A DNA stretch of 64,000 bases from Lactarius indigo. Its lineage: Eukaryota > Basidiomycota > Agaricomycetes > Russulales > Russulaceae. The translations under genes were made by a program, and so were the position numbers. The notes beneath the pieces were generated by a model. The model made no database searches, had not been told where the DNA came from, and was given only the letters and a program-made list of their open reading frames with translations. The stretch lies in NCBI GenBank assembly GCA_025766275.1, contig JAFKAC010000006.1, positions 1,984,001-2,048,000 of the forward strand, in the 5' to 3' direction. This document shows positions 42,931 to 47,904 of this stretch, piece after piece (the stretch's first letter is position 1; each line of letters begins with the position of its first letter).

Positions 42931-43570
42931 TACAATGTTAAAATAATACGCACTTTATTGTAAAGGACTTCGGCTTGGATTTCGCTCGAACTAATTTAAA
43001 CTTCGAAAGGTCCTGTGAATATTGATTCCCTGGCTTCTTACTCCTATGTAAACATGACCAGTATACAATTGTAGAACTATGCAACAATGGATCTACTCGT
43101 CCCTCGTGGTGTTCCTCAACTCCAGTAAGAATATAAAATTGAGGGGGAATATTGTTCTGCAGAATATCTTAAACAAGTAAAACAAGGTCTTGTCGGCGCA
43201 CATATTTTCTCGCACTAAAACATCAACAAGATATTATCTTAACAGATGCAAGAACAAACGAACCACATCGGTAGCCATAATAAAGCTTGCAAATAGCACG
43301 ACAGAGTGCTCTTGAGAAGACTAACGTAGTAAGGTGTTGTCGAATCTTCGAGTCAATATTTGCCACCCGATAGTCAAGCTCAGCATGGGCCAAAGCTGAT
43401 TTGGTTGACGAGTTTGAGAGACGTAATAAAGTGGCATTCTTCAAGATGATGACAACAGCTTCGAACAAAGGTTAAATGCGCCTTAGAAATGATAAAAGTG
43501 AAGTAATACCAAGAGCCAAATGATAGCGGCCAAGATAGGTGCCACTGACAGTGAGCTAGAGAGATAAATG
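42931..43570. other. AT-rich spacer downstream of the GTPase array
   Basis: It holds possible further degenerate splice-like signals in minus orientation (for example acceptor CTCTCTAG and donor GTCAGT around six bases at 43553-43558). No gene recognised. Confidence 0.4.
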
Positions 43571-46500
43571 TCATACGCCAGGGACAAACGACTGTAATAC
43601 GAAGATAATACATTTGTAATGGTGGGCAGTGACATAAGCTGCATCACTTGATAAAGAAGTGAGATTGTGGTGTAGTGAAAATATGAAGAGCACGTACAAA
43701 CTGGGGAACCAAAGGAAGACACTAATTAGCAGGCTGGAAAGGAGGAAATGCACGCACATGCTCGTTAGACAAAGATGATTATGATCGACGAAGTCGGAAA
43801 CAGGTAATCAACAGGCATAGAAGGGCAAACGACAACTCACGTGCTGTAAAGCCGAGACAAACATCGTTAGCAGGGCCAGGATCAGAGTGAGATGTGGCAG
43901 CCACTCACAGACTGGAGAACCGAGGACAGGCGCCGTCAGTGAGATTGAAACGCAGCGAGCCAAGGCAGCCACTTCACCAACTGAAGAGCCGAGAACAGGC
44001 GTCGTCAGCAGCATTGAAACTGCAGCCAGCCACTGGCAGCCACTCACAGACTGGAAAGCCGAGGACAGGCGTCGTCAGTGGCATTGAAACACAGCCAGCC
44101 ACGGCGGCCACTCACTTCCTGGAGAGCCAAGGACAGGCGTTCGTCAGTAGGGTTGAAACGCAGCCAGCCACGGCAGCCACTCACTTCCTGGAGAACCGAG
44201 GACAGGCGTCATCAGTGGCATTGAAACGCAGCCAGCCACAGCACCAACTCACACGCTGGAGAGCCGAGGACAGGTGTCGTCAGCGGCATTGAAACGCAGC
44301 CAGCCTTGGCAGCCACTCACCAACTGGAGAGCCGAGGACAGGCGTCATTAGCGGCATTGAAACGCAGCCAGCCACGGCAGCCACTCACACGCTGGAGAGC
44401 CGAGGACAGGTGTCGTCAGCGGCATTGAAATGCAGCCAGCCACAGCAGCCACTCACACCCTGGACAGCCAAGGGTAGGCGTCGTCAGTGGCATTGAAACG
44501 CAGCCAGCCGTGGCAGCACTCACATGCTGGAGAGCCGAGGACAGGCGTCGTCAGTGAGATCGAAACGCAGCCAGCCACGGCAGCCACTCACCAACTGGAG
44601 AGCCAAGGACAGGCGTCGTCAGCATCATTGAAACGCAGCCAGCCACGGCAGCCACGCACAAACTGGAGAGCCGAGGACAGGCGTCGTCAGCGGCATTGAA
44701 ACGCAGCCAGCCTTGGCAGCCACTCACACCCTGGACAGCCAAGGGTAGGCGTCGTCAGTGGCATTGAAACGCAGCCAGCCGTGGCAGCACTCACAGGCTG
44801 GAGAGCCGAGGACAGGCGTCGTCAGTGAGATCGAAACGCAGCCAGCCACGGCAGCCACTCACCAACTGGAGAGCCAAGGACAGGCGTCGTCAGCATCATT
44901 GAAACGCAGCCAGCCACGGCAGCCACGCACAAACTGGAGAGCCGAGGACAGGCGTCGTCAGTGGGATTGAAACGCAGCCAGCCACGGCGGCCACTCACAT
45001 CCTAGAGAGCCGAGGACAGGCGTCGTCAGTGAGATTGAAACGCAGCTAGCCACGGCAGCCACTCACTTCCTGGAGAGCCGAGGACAGGCGTCGTCAGCGG
45101 CATTAAAACGCAGCCAGCCACGGCAGCCACTCACACCCTGGAGAGCCGAGGACAGGCGTCATCAGTGAGATTGAAACGCAGCTAGCCATGGCAGCCACTC
45201 ACCAACTGGAGAGCCGAGGACAGGCGTCGTCAGTGGGATTGAAACGCAGCCAGCCACGGCGGCCACTCACATCCTAGAGAGCCGAGGACAGGCGTCGTCA
45301 GTGAGATTGAAACGCAGCTAGCCACGGCAGCCACTCACTTCCTGGAGAGCCGAGGACAGGCGTCGTCAGCGGCATTAAAACGCAGCCAGCCACGGCAGCC
45401 ACTCACACCCTGGAGAGCCGAGGACAGGCGTCATCAGTGAGATTGAAACGCAGCTAGCCATGGCAGCCACTCACCAACTGGAGAGCCGAGGACAGGCGTC
45501 GTCAGTGGGATTGAAACGCAGCCAGCCACAGCAGCCACGCACAAACTGGAGAGCCGAGGACAGGCGTCGTCAGTGGGATTGAAACGCAGCCAGCCACAGC
45601 AGCCACTCACAGGCTGGAGAGCCGAGGACAGGCGTCGTCAGAGACACTGAAACGCAGCCAACCATGGCAGCCACTCACCAACTGAAGAGCCGAGGACAGG
45701 CGTCGTCAGCGGCATTGAAACGCAGCCAGCCACGGCAGCCACTCACTTCCTGGAGAGCCAAGGACAGGCGTCGTCAGCGTCATTGAAACGCAGCCAACCA
45801 TGGCAGCCACTCACCAACTGGAGAGCCGAGGACAGGCGTCGTCAGTGGGATTGAAACGCAGCCAGCCACGGCGGCCACTCACATCCTAGAGAGCCGAGGA
45901 CAGGCGTCGTCAGCGGCATTGAAACGCAGCCAGCCACGGCAGCCACTCACTTCCTGGAGAGCCGAGGACAGGCGTCATTAGCGGCATTGAAACGCAGCCA
46001 GCCACGGCAGCCACTCACATACTGGAGAACCGAGGATAGGCGTCGTTAGTGAGATTGAAACGCAGCTAGCCACGGCAGCCACTCACTTCCTGGAGAGCCG
46101 AGGACAGGCGTCGTCAGTGTGATTGAAACGCAGCTAGCCACGGCAGCCACTCACAGGCTGGTCAGCCGAGGACAGGCGTCGTCAGTGAGATTGAAACGCA
46201 GCTAGCCACGGCAGCCACTCACCAACTGGAGAGCCGAGGACAGGCGTCGTCAGCGGCATTGAAACGCAGCCAGCCACGGCAGCCACTCACAGGCTGGTCA
46301 GCCGAGGACAGGCGTCGTCAGTGGGATTGAAACGCAGCTAGCCATGGCAGCCACTTACTTCCTGGAGAGCCGAGGACAGGCGTCGTCAGCAGCATTGAAA
46401 TGCAGCCAGCCACGGCAGCCACTCACAGACTGGAGAGCCGAGGACAGGCGTCGTCAGTGAGATTGAAACACAGCCAACCACGGCGGCCACTCACAGACTG

Positions 46501-47904
46501 GAGGCATTGTCAGCAAGCTCTAAAGTAGTAAGATACGGTCGCCGCTCACCCACTGGAGAGTGGACCACCAGCATGATCAGGTCAGTCGATCTGAAATCCG
46601 TGAGTAAGAACTGGCGCTCACATGCTAGAAGTTGGGGGGCATCAAACGTATGAACTATGCACCGCAAATTCAACACTTACCCACATGTATGGAAACGGGG
46701 CAAGACATTCCCAAACTATATCTTCCACCTCCGAGTCATTGCCAGTACGGGTCTGGACACTGCAATGCTTGTTGTGGTCACCCACTTCGCCCCTTCAATT
46801 TGTGCACTCACCGGTTTAAAGCCATTTTAACACTCAATTCTAAATTGCTCCTCTGTATGGACAAAAGCATCAGCGCGGTGGTTTCATCGTTCAAAGCTGC
46901 GGCCGTCGCCTCAATAAGCTCCTTGCAGCGCATATTTTGATGTGCATTTCTGCCAAAAGAAGTATTAGTATGCAACTCTGGTATTTGTCTCTGAACCCAC
47001 TTTGTAATCGCACAAATCTAACACCTTCACCAAGGGGACGCAGGTAGTGCTCTTGAAAGCGTTTTTCCGTCTCTTGAGATACGTCGTCCTCTGGGCTTCC
47101 GAAATCCTCAACATTGATTTGGACATTTCGTCAGGAATTGGTCGTATTTTGTAAATACGGCGATGACCGGGACTTGTTATTATTCTGTCAAATAAACTCA
47201 CGAATGTCTGTAACGACTGACGCACCATTCTGGTCGGGGCAGATTCCCTTGAAAAATCTCAGATCGAGCTCTGGTCGTTGGTTGTCCATTGGGACACAGA
47301 ACCTCAAATATGACTGTCAGTCGTCGAAATTGCATATACTGGAGAGTCACAAACCATATCGCATGTAATCTGTCTCTCAGTCGCCTTTCTCCGCACTTGC
47401 GTTGAATGAACCCGTTCAAAATTTCAAGTTCCGTTGTACTTGCTGATTCAATTCCACGAGAGTCGTGGAAAATGTATCCCTTATGATTAGAGAACACAAG
47501 TTCGTCGTCAATTGAGTGCTCGCCTCGCTGGTTCCGTGTTTAGAGGCAATCCAATAGAAGTACTATCGTCACTAACATCAATGGACGGATTGAGTGTAAT
47601 CTAGTCTGCAGTGAGATCAGACTCGCAGGTAAAAAGGTTGAACAGATACCCTCTCATTCCTCCAACCCTTTCTCCGGTAAATAATGGGACTGTCTGTCGT
47701 GTCACACACTCGTTGAAGAATCGATGTTTTGCCAGCATTTGCCCTTCCTATGATAAGGACTCGGAAGTTGATCTTTGGAACTCGACGAGGGGGTTGTTGC
47801 CGGTTCATTGGAGTGACGGAGCAAGAGTTGTTGATCGATTCGATCCCGTCCTCGATCGATGGTTCACACGGTTCACCTTCCTTATCCGGTTGTTCGACCA
47901 ACAC
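43571..47904 (-). CDS. P-loop GTPase whose 3' part is an array of single-codon exons
   Basis: Exons with consistent phases: 47904-47650 (contains VLIIGRANAGKTSILQRVCD, G1), 47600-47577 (ITLNPSID), 47527-47355 (HDSRGIESASTTELEIL, G3-like), 47302-47226 (CVPMDNQRPELDLRFFKGIC), 47172-47001 (VPVIAVFTKYDQF, G4 TKYD, then EKRFQEHYLRPLGEGVRFVR), 46949-46812 (CKELIEATAAALNDETTALM) and 46759-46681 (ending WECLAPFPYMW). This is the GTPase family common in mushrooms; cellular role unknown. Two A-run indels occur (47125-47127 and about 46935). After 46681 only 3-nt exons separated by 56-83-nt introns can be placed, in phase 0, beginning HWSSEPLPEY. A possible last exon is 43591-43571 (SFVPGV-stop). The start is the first in-frame Met and is not certain. 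Confidence 0.8.
43690..46625 (-). repeat. 68-bp minisatellite made of 65-nt introns plus 3-nt exons
   Basis: Forty regularly spaced units (spacing 68 nt, a few 67, 69 or 70) and four less regular ones. On the minus strand a unit starts GTGAGTGGCTGCCGTGG, has the branch-like CACTGACG 24 nt before the end, and ends CGGCTCTCCAG. Three bases then follow before the next GTGAGT. Donor variants are GTAAGT, GTGCGT, GTGAAG, GTGAGC and GTACGT. Branch variants are CTGAC, CTGAT, CTAAT and CTAAC. Acceptor variants include CTCTAG, CTTCAG, GTCCAG and GACCAG, always AG. The triplet is TTG nine times, GAA eight, TCT, CCT, GGT and TTT four each, GAT three, CAT three, CGT two, and CAC, TAT and TGG once each. 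No stop occurs among 44. Confidence 0.9.
44972..45515 (-). repeat. 272-bp higher-order block, duplicated in tandem
   Basis: Bases 44972-45243 are repeated almost without change at 45244-45515. Four 68-bp units with triplets (minus order) TTG, GGT, GAA, GAT are copied together. A second four-unit block at 44446-44716 is copied at 44717-44987 with period 271. The array therefore grows partly by multi-unit duplication. Confidence 0.85.

Follow-up and report, generated by a model that had tools for sequence, protein, structure and literature searches.

Within a 64-kb window of the Lactarius indigo genome (the whole stretch analysed, 64,000 nucleotides of contig JAFKAC010000006.1), a contiguous chain of 45 GT-AG introns and 44 three-base exons was identified behind a GTPase exon, on the minus strand from 46680 to 43639. 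It is our reading, with a probability of roughly 0.7, that these triplets are one-codon exons that are spliced into a hypervariable segment behind the GTPase and reshuffled by recombination between the introns. Tandem one-codon exons of this kind would be a new gene architecture.

The parse of the window required AG-NNN-GT, so GT and AG are present in 45/45 introns by construction, but the length of the chain is not. There are 44 linked AG-NNN-GT sites in the array, against 2 elsewhere on the minus strand and 3 on the plus strand, and when the window was shuffled base by base 20 times, the longest chain was 1 to 3. An earlier note on this DNA had described 44 steps of intron plus three bases on the minus strand, with regular introns of 65 nt and a CTRAY element at nearly every step, and all of this was recovered. 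Exactly 65 nt are found in 34 of the 45 introns, the remainder being 52 to 80 nt, and 41 of the 45 carry a CTRAY element at 15 to 45 nt from the acceptor. Tandem Repeats Finder (TRF) reports 38.3 copies of a 68-bp unit. The ends of the array are atypical, with first three introns of 56, 69, and 52 nt and last three of 80, 57, and 59 nt; the exons between these still have three bases. The preceding GTPase exon closes with CCATACATGTGG and a GTAAGT donor in phase 0, as the earlier note had also stated, so each triplet corresponds to one codon. The 44 triplets translate to HWSSEPLPEYEDLELPFLGEDLGEDFLPGFLHGRLREESLSHHF, with zero stops.

The array is one of many. A search of the 90.3 Mb L. indigo genome sequence (291 contigs) returned 66 matches to array DNA, which were merged by hand into at least about 40 arrays, a lower bound in that only the best candidates were scored and a count that may include both haplotypes. 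Contigs C218 and C259 resemble two haplotypes of one region and hold the locus pairs L012/L017 and L015/L018. Directly ahead of the array in all 24 loci examined (23 and the window copy, of about 40) is a GTPase exon with a PY.W end. Array size across the family is 25 to 75 single codons.

The spacing of three bases is held genome-wide. The sequence CTSTCCAG-NNN-GTGAGTGG occurs 922 times (reversed control 0). The same two flanks are separated by 4 to 12 bases once (six bases, in frame; control 1) and by 0 to 2 bases once, on contig C270 outside any detected array (control 0). A dynamic programming parse of 21 arrays, which carried a mild penalty on exon lengths other than 3 nt, gave 971 three-base exons out of 978. 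The other seven consist of five parse choices for which an AG-NNN-GT reading is also possible, one six-base exon (L011), and one four-base exon in L016, a locus with a frameshifted GTPase part. One unit in L024 is without its acceptor AG and one in L027 has a GC donor. Introns of up to 70 nt number 945 across the family, of which 850 are 65 nt and 95 are 53 to 67 nt. The indel rate per base in the exons is not strikingly below that in the introns.

The array could instead be a single intron of about 3 kb, bounded by the first donor and the last acceptor, in which a duplicated intron has become a minisatellite and the triplets never enter the mRNA. The flanks would join in phase 0 either way, and tandem duplication with homogenisation would copy splice sites even if these were unused. 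However, a spacer held at 922:2 although intron length varies, together with the constraint on the splice sites and the behaviour of the triplets described below, makes this explanation unlikely.

For the splice sites, column variability in bits was calculated over 752 distinct 68-mers, which were picked by a splice-site matrix so that column conservation is partly conditioned. Values of 0 to 0.3 bits are found at GT and G5 of the donor, at C, T, and A of the branch element, and at the AG of the acceptor; columns T10, T15, and A4 are likewise low. Other intron columns reach up to 1.5 bits, and the triplet columns are the most variable at 1.74 to 1.86. Splice-site columns that are far more constrained than most of their intron neighbours are not what a single large intron would lead one to expect. 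The introns have the form of U2-type spliceosomal introns (GT...CTRAY...AG, with constraint above background), again partly conditioned on the choice of units, and CTRAY is present 15 to 45 nt from the acceptor in 882 of the 945 family introns of up to 70 nt.

Among the triplets, those able to generate a rival splice site are avoided, which also argues against a single intron. TNA triplets, which would form GTNAGT over the acceptor, were observed 7 times against 155 expected from column frequencies. NAG triplets, which would form a second acceptor, were observed 5 times against 66 expected, and GTN triplets, which would form a donor right behind the acceptor, 14 times against 97. The same avoidance is present among synonymous codons when the arrays are compared with the GTPase exons of the same genes. 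GAG:GAA is 5:184 in the arrays and 146:153 in the GTPase exons, AAG:AAA is 0:24 and 107:105, CAG:CAA is 0:19 and 69:138, TTA:TTG is 5:102 and 46:98, and TCA to other TCN is 2:69 and 12:112 (p = 0.09). All five comparisons go in the same direction, and the p-values for synonymous choice are too small, the units being related through duplication. Such avoidance at synonymous positions suggests that the splice sites are in use.

There are no stops among the 971 triplets, where 122 would be expected from free columns. Genome-wide, TCCAG-NNN-GTGAGTGG gives 1,100 junctions (reversed control 7), with TCA at 7, TTA at 4, GAG at 6 (GAG control 3), and TAA, TGA, and TAG at 0. The absence of stops was considered as independent proof of translation and rejected as such, since all three stops belong to the avoided TNA and NAG classes. 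Between AG and GT, TAA or TGA would generate GTAAGT or GTGAGT and TAG would generate a second AG, so splice-site avoidance accounts for most of the missing stops. Sense triplets of the stop-like classes (TTA, TCA, AAG, CAG, and GAG) are likewise depleted. Other biases in the 21 parsed loci are not obviously due to rival splice sites: the arrays contain few Cys (1 of 971), Thr (4), and Ala (16) residues, and AGA accounts for 121 of the 127 Arg codons.

The triplets are hypervariable. Among 202 unit pairs from the same array with 0/65 flank differences, the triplet is not the same in 78%, with 0.58 changes per base. Transitions make up about 30% of the triplet changes, as in random letters, against about 67% of the flank changes. 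A passive spacer within one large intron should drift like the intron and not saturate with transversions. Each array uses effectively 5 to 10 codons.

Loci with nearly the same flanks can differ in both the triplets and the number of units. L012 and L015 share 99.2% identity in the 1,126 aligned bases ahead of the array and 99.3% behind it, and they have 57 and 45 units, respectively. Their palettes differ, with AGA present ten times in L012 against one Arg in L015, and ATA seven times in L015. In some pairs, intron-based pairing of the units beats 30 shuffles with the array ends fixed. In these, 29 of 61 triplets differ for L017/L018 (98.1% identity before and 99.5% after the array), 24 of 41 for L022/L026 (97.2%), 4 of 37 for L020/L021 (98.9%, with array introns only about 75% alike), and 6 of 37 for L020/L024. 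Where pairing is no better than the shuffles and the correspondence of units is uncertain, 30 of 41 triplets differ for L012/L015 and 38 of 40 for L009/L010 (98.8% before and 86.7% after the array); L009 and the window copy are also in this group. More distant pairs differ at 17 of 22 triplets (L019/L023), 12 of 15 (L019/L027), and 29 of 37 (L009/L011). L013/L014, which like L020/L021 and L020/L024 is a slow pair, differs at 1 of 29.

The 25 units of L017/L018 in which the triplet has changed show about 2 flank differences, against 12 in random pairs. Over these few pairs, triplet turnover tends to be fastest where the introns are most alike, the young pair L013/L014 being an exception. This trend fits recombination between introns as the likely motor of the turnover. 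As a separate case, the arrays of L025 (contig C223) and L029 (contig C231) translate to an identical 67-residue peptide on different contigs, unlike L012/L015, and are alleles or a recent copy.

Introner elements are near-identical introns that are scattered in large numbers through unrelated genes. If an older ordinary coding exon had been invaded after every codon by copies of one such intron, this would account for identical introns around unrelated triplets. Scattered insertion would not, however, be expected to give an exact three-base, all-phase-0 spacing. In addition, the differences in triplets and unit number between alleles with 99% identical flanks mean that the coding content itself turns over. 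The introns here are in tandem, and the arrays examined all lie in one gene family behind the one GTPase exon, rather than in many unrelated genes. Invasion of this kind is therefore very improbable.

Of 20 aligned copies (an alignment without L025, the PY.W exon of which was located separately), 17 have an open GTPase part. Twelve of these have their own frame and in five (L020, L021, L022, L024, and L026) the frame continues from an upstream exon, as in the NCBI model P0009; L019, one of the twelve, has no ATG in the expected position. P0009, an L. indigo protein, contains the 266-residue GTPase translation of L022 letter for letter. P0009 adds 142 residues (DLKEISVDFIETRPTSDLELVFKD...) upstream of the GTPase, which we take to be possibly a C2-like domain. 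For GTPase exons 2 to 6, the median ratio of non-synonymous to synonymous substitution rates (dN/dS) is 0.228 and none is above 1 in 133 of 136 pairs, three with dS of 0.02 or less being excluded; by this measure the GTPase is under purifying selection. The spliced L013 model matches the MMR_HSR1-type GTPase family (PF01926) marginally, with 22.2 bits against a gathering cut-off of 21.9, and a PF01926-type domain is precomputed on several of the listed homologs. No WD40 or NACHT domain was found at E 0.1 in a Pfam scan of the L013 model.

The probable C-terminal exon, with LMSLPTI.NV followed by ILKNATLLRLSN..SALTHAELDYR.ANIDSKIRQ, joins the array in phase 0. Its frame is open for 130 to 133 codons in 6 of 21 copies (L009, L010, L011, L013, L014, and L016), and L009, L010, L011, and L013 are intact throughout. 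Similar sequence ends the homologs of L. tabidus, L. quietus, L. hengduanensis, and Galerina, which indicates that the domain is real. As a correction to the earlier note, the next exon is placed at 43638 and not near 43571, with less certainty than the other parts. The candidate final exon near 43571 (LTVSGTYLGRYHL...) was dropped in favour of the alternative frame that is unbroken in the six copies.

The arrays are not confined to L. indigo. An array intron read as protein (e.g. VSGCRGSLRFKPADDACPRLS) is matched at a score of at least 38 by 25 proteins among the best 120 of 1,063 homologs, where shuffles give 0.1 expected and none reach 60. Among the same 120, 12 score at least 60, six from L. 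vividus, three from L. hatsudake, two from L. sanguifluus, and one from L. pseudohatsudake, and two L. tabidus proteins score 53 to 54. These matches in other Lactarius species indicate that the array predates L. indigo. The protein P0006 comes from a contig of 3,017 bases and has 494 residues in one continuous frame, which matches the entire GTPase and the C-terminal domain; in between, precisely from PYIW to that domain, lie 61 other residues. The lack of interruptions at the sites of the L. indigo introns suggests that P0006 represents a spliced transcript. In four L. quietus models, 27 to 41 residues occupy the array site (cut by the author's judgement). Together with P0006, these are only suggestive of microexon inclusion in mature RNA. 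A search with the P0006 tail for further full-length products returned P0006 itself only. The L. quietus C-terminal domain search returned six proteins, P0123 among them, of which P0122 and P0124 were judged by eye to read array introns.

Inserts of 27 to 61 residues, and of only a few residues in other relatives, could also come from one-codon exons that are included in varying subsets by combinatorial splicing. All of the exons are symmetric, so any subset would stay in frame, and very short exons are often skipped. However, the splice signals are alike across the units, although no search for a regulatory pattern was made. This is a variant of the reading preferred here, with which its odds overlap, and subset inclusion on its own account is possible but rather doubtful.

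Several observations weigh against the splicing of one-codon exons. Once splice-site avoidance is allowed for, just 2.4 stops are expected in the 971 triplets. The GTPase is damaged in L014, where the 5' part is replaced, in L016, and in the window copy. The C-terminal frame closes after 26 to 74 codons in 15 of 21 copies, that of the window included, so that the structure behind the array would seem unsettled for most of the family. This slightly lowers confidence in the one-codon reading and slightly raises that in a single large intron. In 8/8 60-nt windows of the C-terminal exon, variability is highest at codon position 3, but these include two at or past the L009 stop, which makes this a weak test. 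No hydrophobic or helical periodicity was found in the array peptides over 12 lags (largest absolute z 2.15; near-duplicate arrays L014, L021, and L024 left aside). In the models P0007 (L. tabidus) and P0123 (L. quietus), no more than a few residues stand between the two flanks. A lack of pattern in the order of the peptide and the skipping of the array in these two models would both suit a single intron. The insert composition in P0006 and three of the four L. quietus models does not favour array over GTPase composition, P0065 being the only insert model in which array composition is favoured. The claim of the earlier note that each amino acid has its own exon therefore stands in part: comparative architecture, constraint, and phase 0 agree with it, the structure after the array is part-settled, and some models from relatives skip the array. 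As to the C-terminal copies that close, the sequence beyond is still conserved and L012, L015, L017, and L018 have a common one-base gap; perhaps there is an extra intron or a different ending.

If the one-codon exons are spliced in, the introns of about 65 nt would be recognised by intron definition and removed, probably in sequence. Removal of the upstream intron would fuse a codon to the growing exon, which would then act as 5' partner of the donor that follows. Repeated up to about 75 times, this would join 25 to 75 codons (44 in the window) in frame, from the GTPase to the hydrophobic C-terminal part, and E, R, L, F, D, S, G, and Y would be the abundant residues of the resulting peptide. 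With every exon symmetric in phase 0, the gain, loss, swapping, or skipping of a unit would preserve the frame and add or cost single residues. The near-identical introns would allow recombination or gene conversion to move single codons, making the segment hypervariable while the flanks are conserved. From the sequences compared here, we infer that the triplets are spliced in, in this order of events, and translated, and that the variable segment serves some purpose, which may be recognition. More tentatively, and at somewhat less than even odds, the arrays may be a codon-level diversity generator, in which introns are the recombination scaffolds and codons the cargo shuffled by unequal exchange, conversion, and skipping, to give a hypervariable recognition segment in a large family of milk-cap GTPases.

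Exons at or under one codon have been described singly. Examples are the 3-nt microexon micro-Ex8 of Drosophila homothorax (PMC7392893) and the one-nucleotide exons of Arabidopsis (PMC4674806) and Fusarium CYP621A (PMC12940212). The Lactarius exons are similarly small, but there are 25 to 75 consecutive exons in about 40 genes, with near-identical introns. The Schistosoma micro-exon genes have 10 to 20 exons of 6 to 81 bp (3 to 81 in the abstract), mostly of 15 bp, with introns of 0.1 to 5 kb, and encode secreted proteins (PMC10526429). They share with the Lactarius arrays the many short exons, those of Schistosoma being mostly multiples of three. The Lactarius exons differ from such genes in being 3 nt, in having introns that are mostly 65 nt and repeats of each other, and in being fused to a GTPase.

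A different likeness is to the HNWD non-self recognition genes of Podospora, described in PMC2873952 as STAND proteins with coding WD repeats that show concerted evolution and extreme polymorphism. As there, a repeat array is present in a nucleotide-binding protein, the repeats are kept alike while single positions diversify, and the alleles are hypervariable. By analogy, this suggests self/other recognition. In Lactarius, however, the repeat is an intron with one potential codon per unit, and the Pfam scan of the L013 model gave a GTPase domain but neither WD40 nor NACHT at E 0.1. No tandem array of one-codon exons was found in the open-licence PubMed Central (PMC) literature, searched mostly through top-ranked titles, in agreement with the earlier note, which knew of single microexons only; the available parts of the Lactarius papers PMC8417538 and PMC9713418 have nothing on such arrays.

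If the triplets are spliced in, each transcript would go through dozens of splicing events close to the smallest size at which splicing works, which would put intron definition and sequential splicing to a demanding test. Introns would also gain a concrete role, as homologous DNA for the in-frame exchange of single codons, and the fungus could rapidly rearrange one segment of a protein. Such segments are overlooked in annotation, P0009 ending exactly at the first array donor and other Lactarius models reading the array introns as protein.

Table 1. Features of the GTPase gene and its array in the window
Feature	Position	Strand	Remarks
GTPase exon 1	47650..47808	-	start codon, P-loop GRANAGKTS; donor AGG, then GTATCT
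GTPase exon 2	47577..47600	-	24 nt
GTPase exon 3	47355..47527	-	
GTPase exon 4	47226..47302	-	
GTPase exon 5	47001..47172	-	172 nt here, 171 in intact copies (frame damage)
GTPase exon 6	46812..46949	-	138 nt here, 139 in intact copies (frame damage)
Last GTPase exon	46681..46759	-	PYMW end, phase 0
Array	43639..46680	-	45 GT-AG introns and 44 one-codon exons
Regular 68-bp minisatellite portion	43896..46503	-	65-nt intron and one codon; TRF
Probable C-terminal exon (LMSLPTITNV...)	43243..43638	-	hydrophobic then helix-like; approximate end from L009; window frame closes after about 50 codons

The array of the window copy is stop-free although GTPase exons 5 and 6 and the C-terminal exon (about 43500-43640) are frame-damaged.

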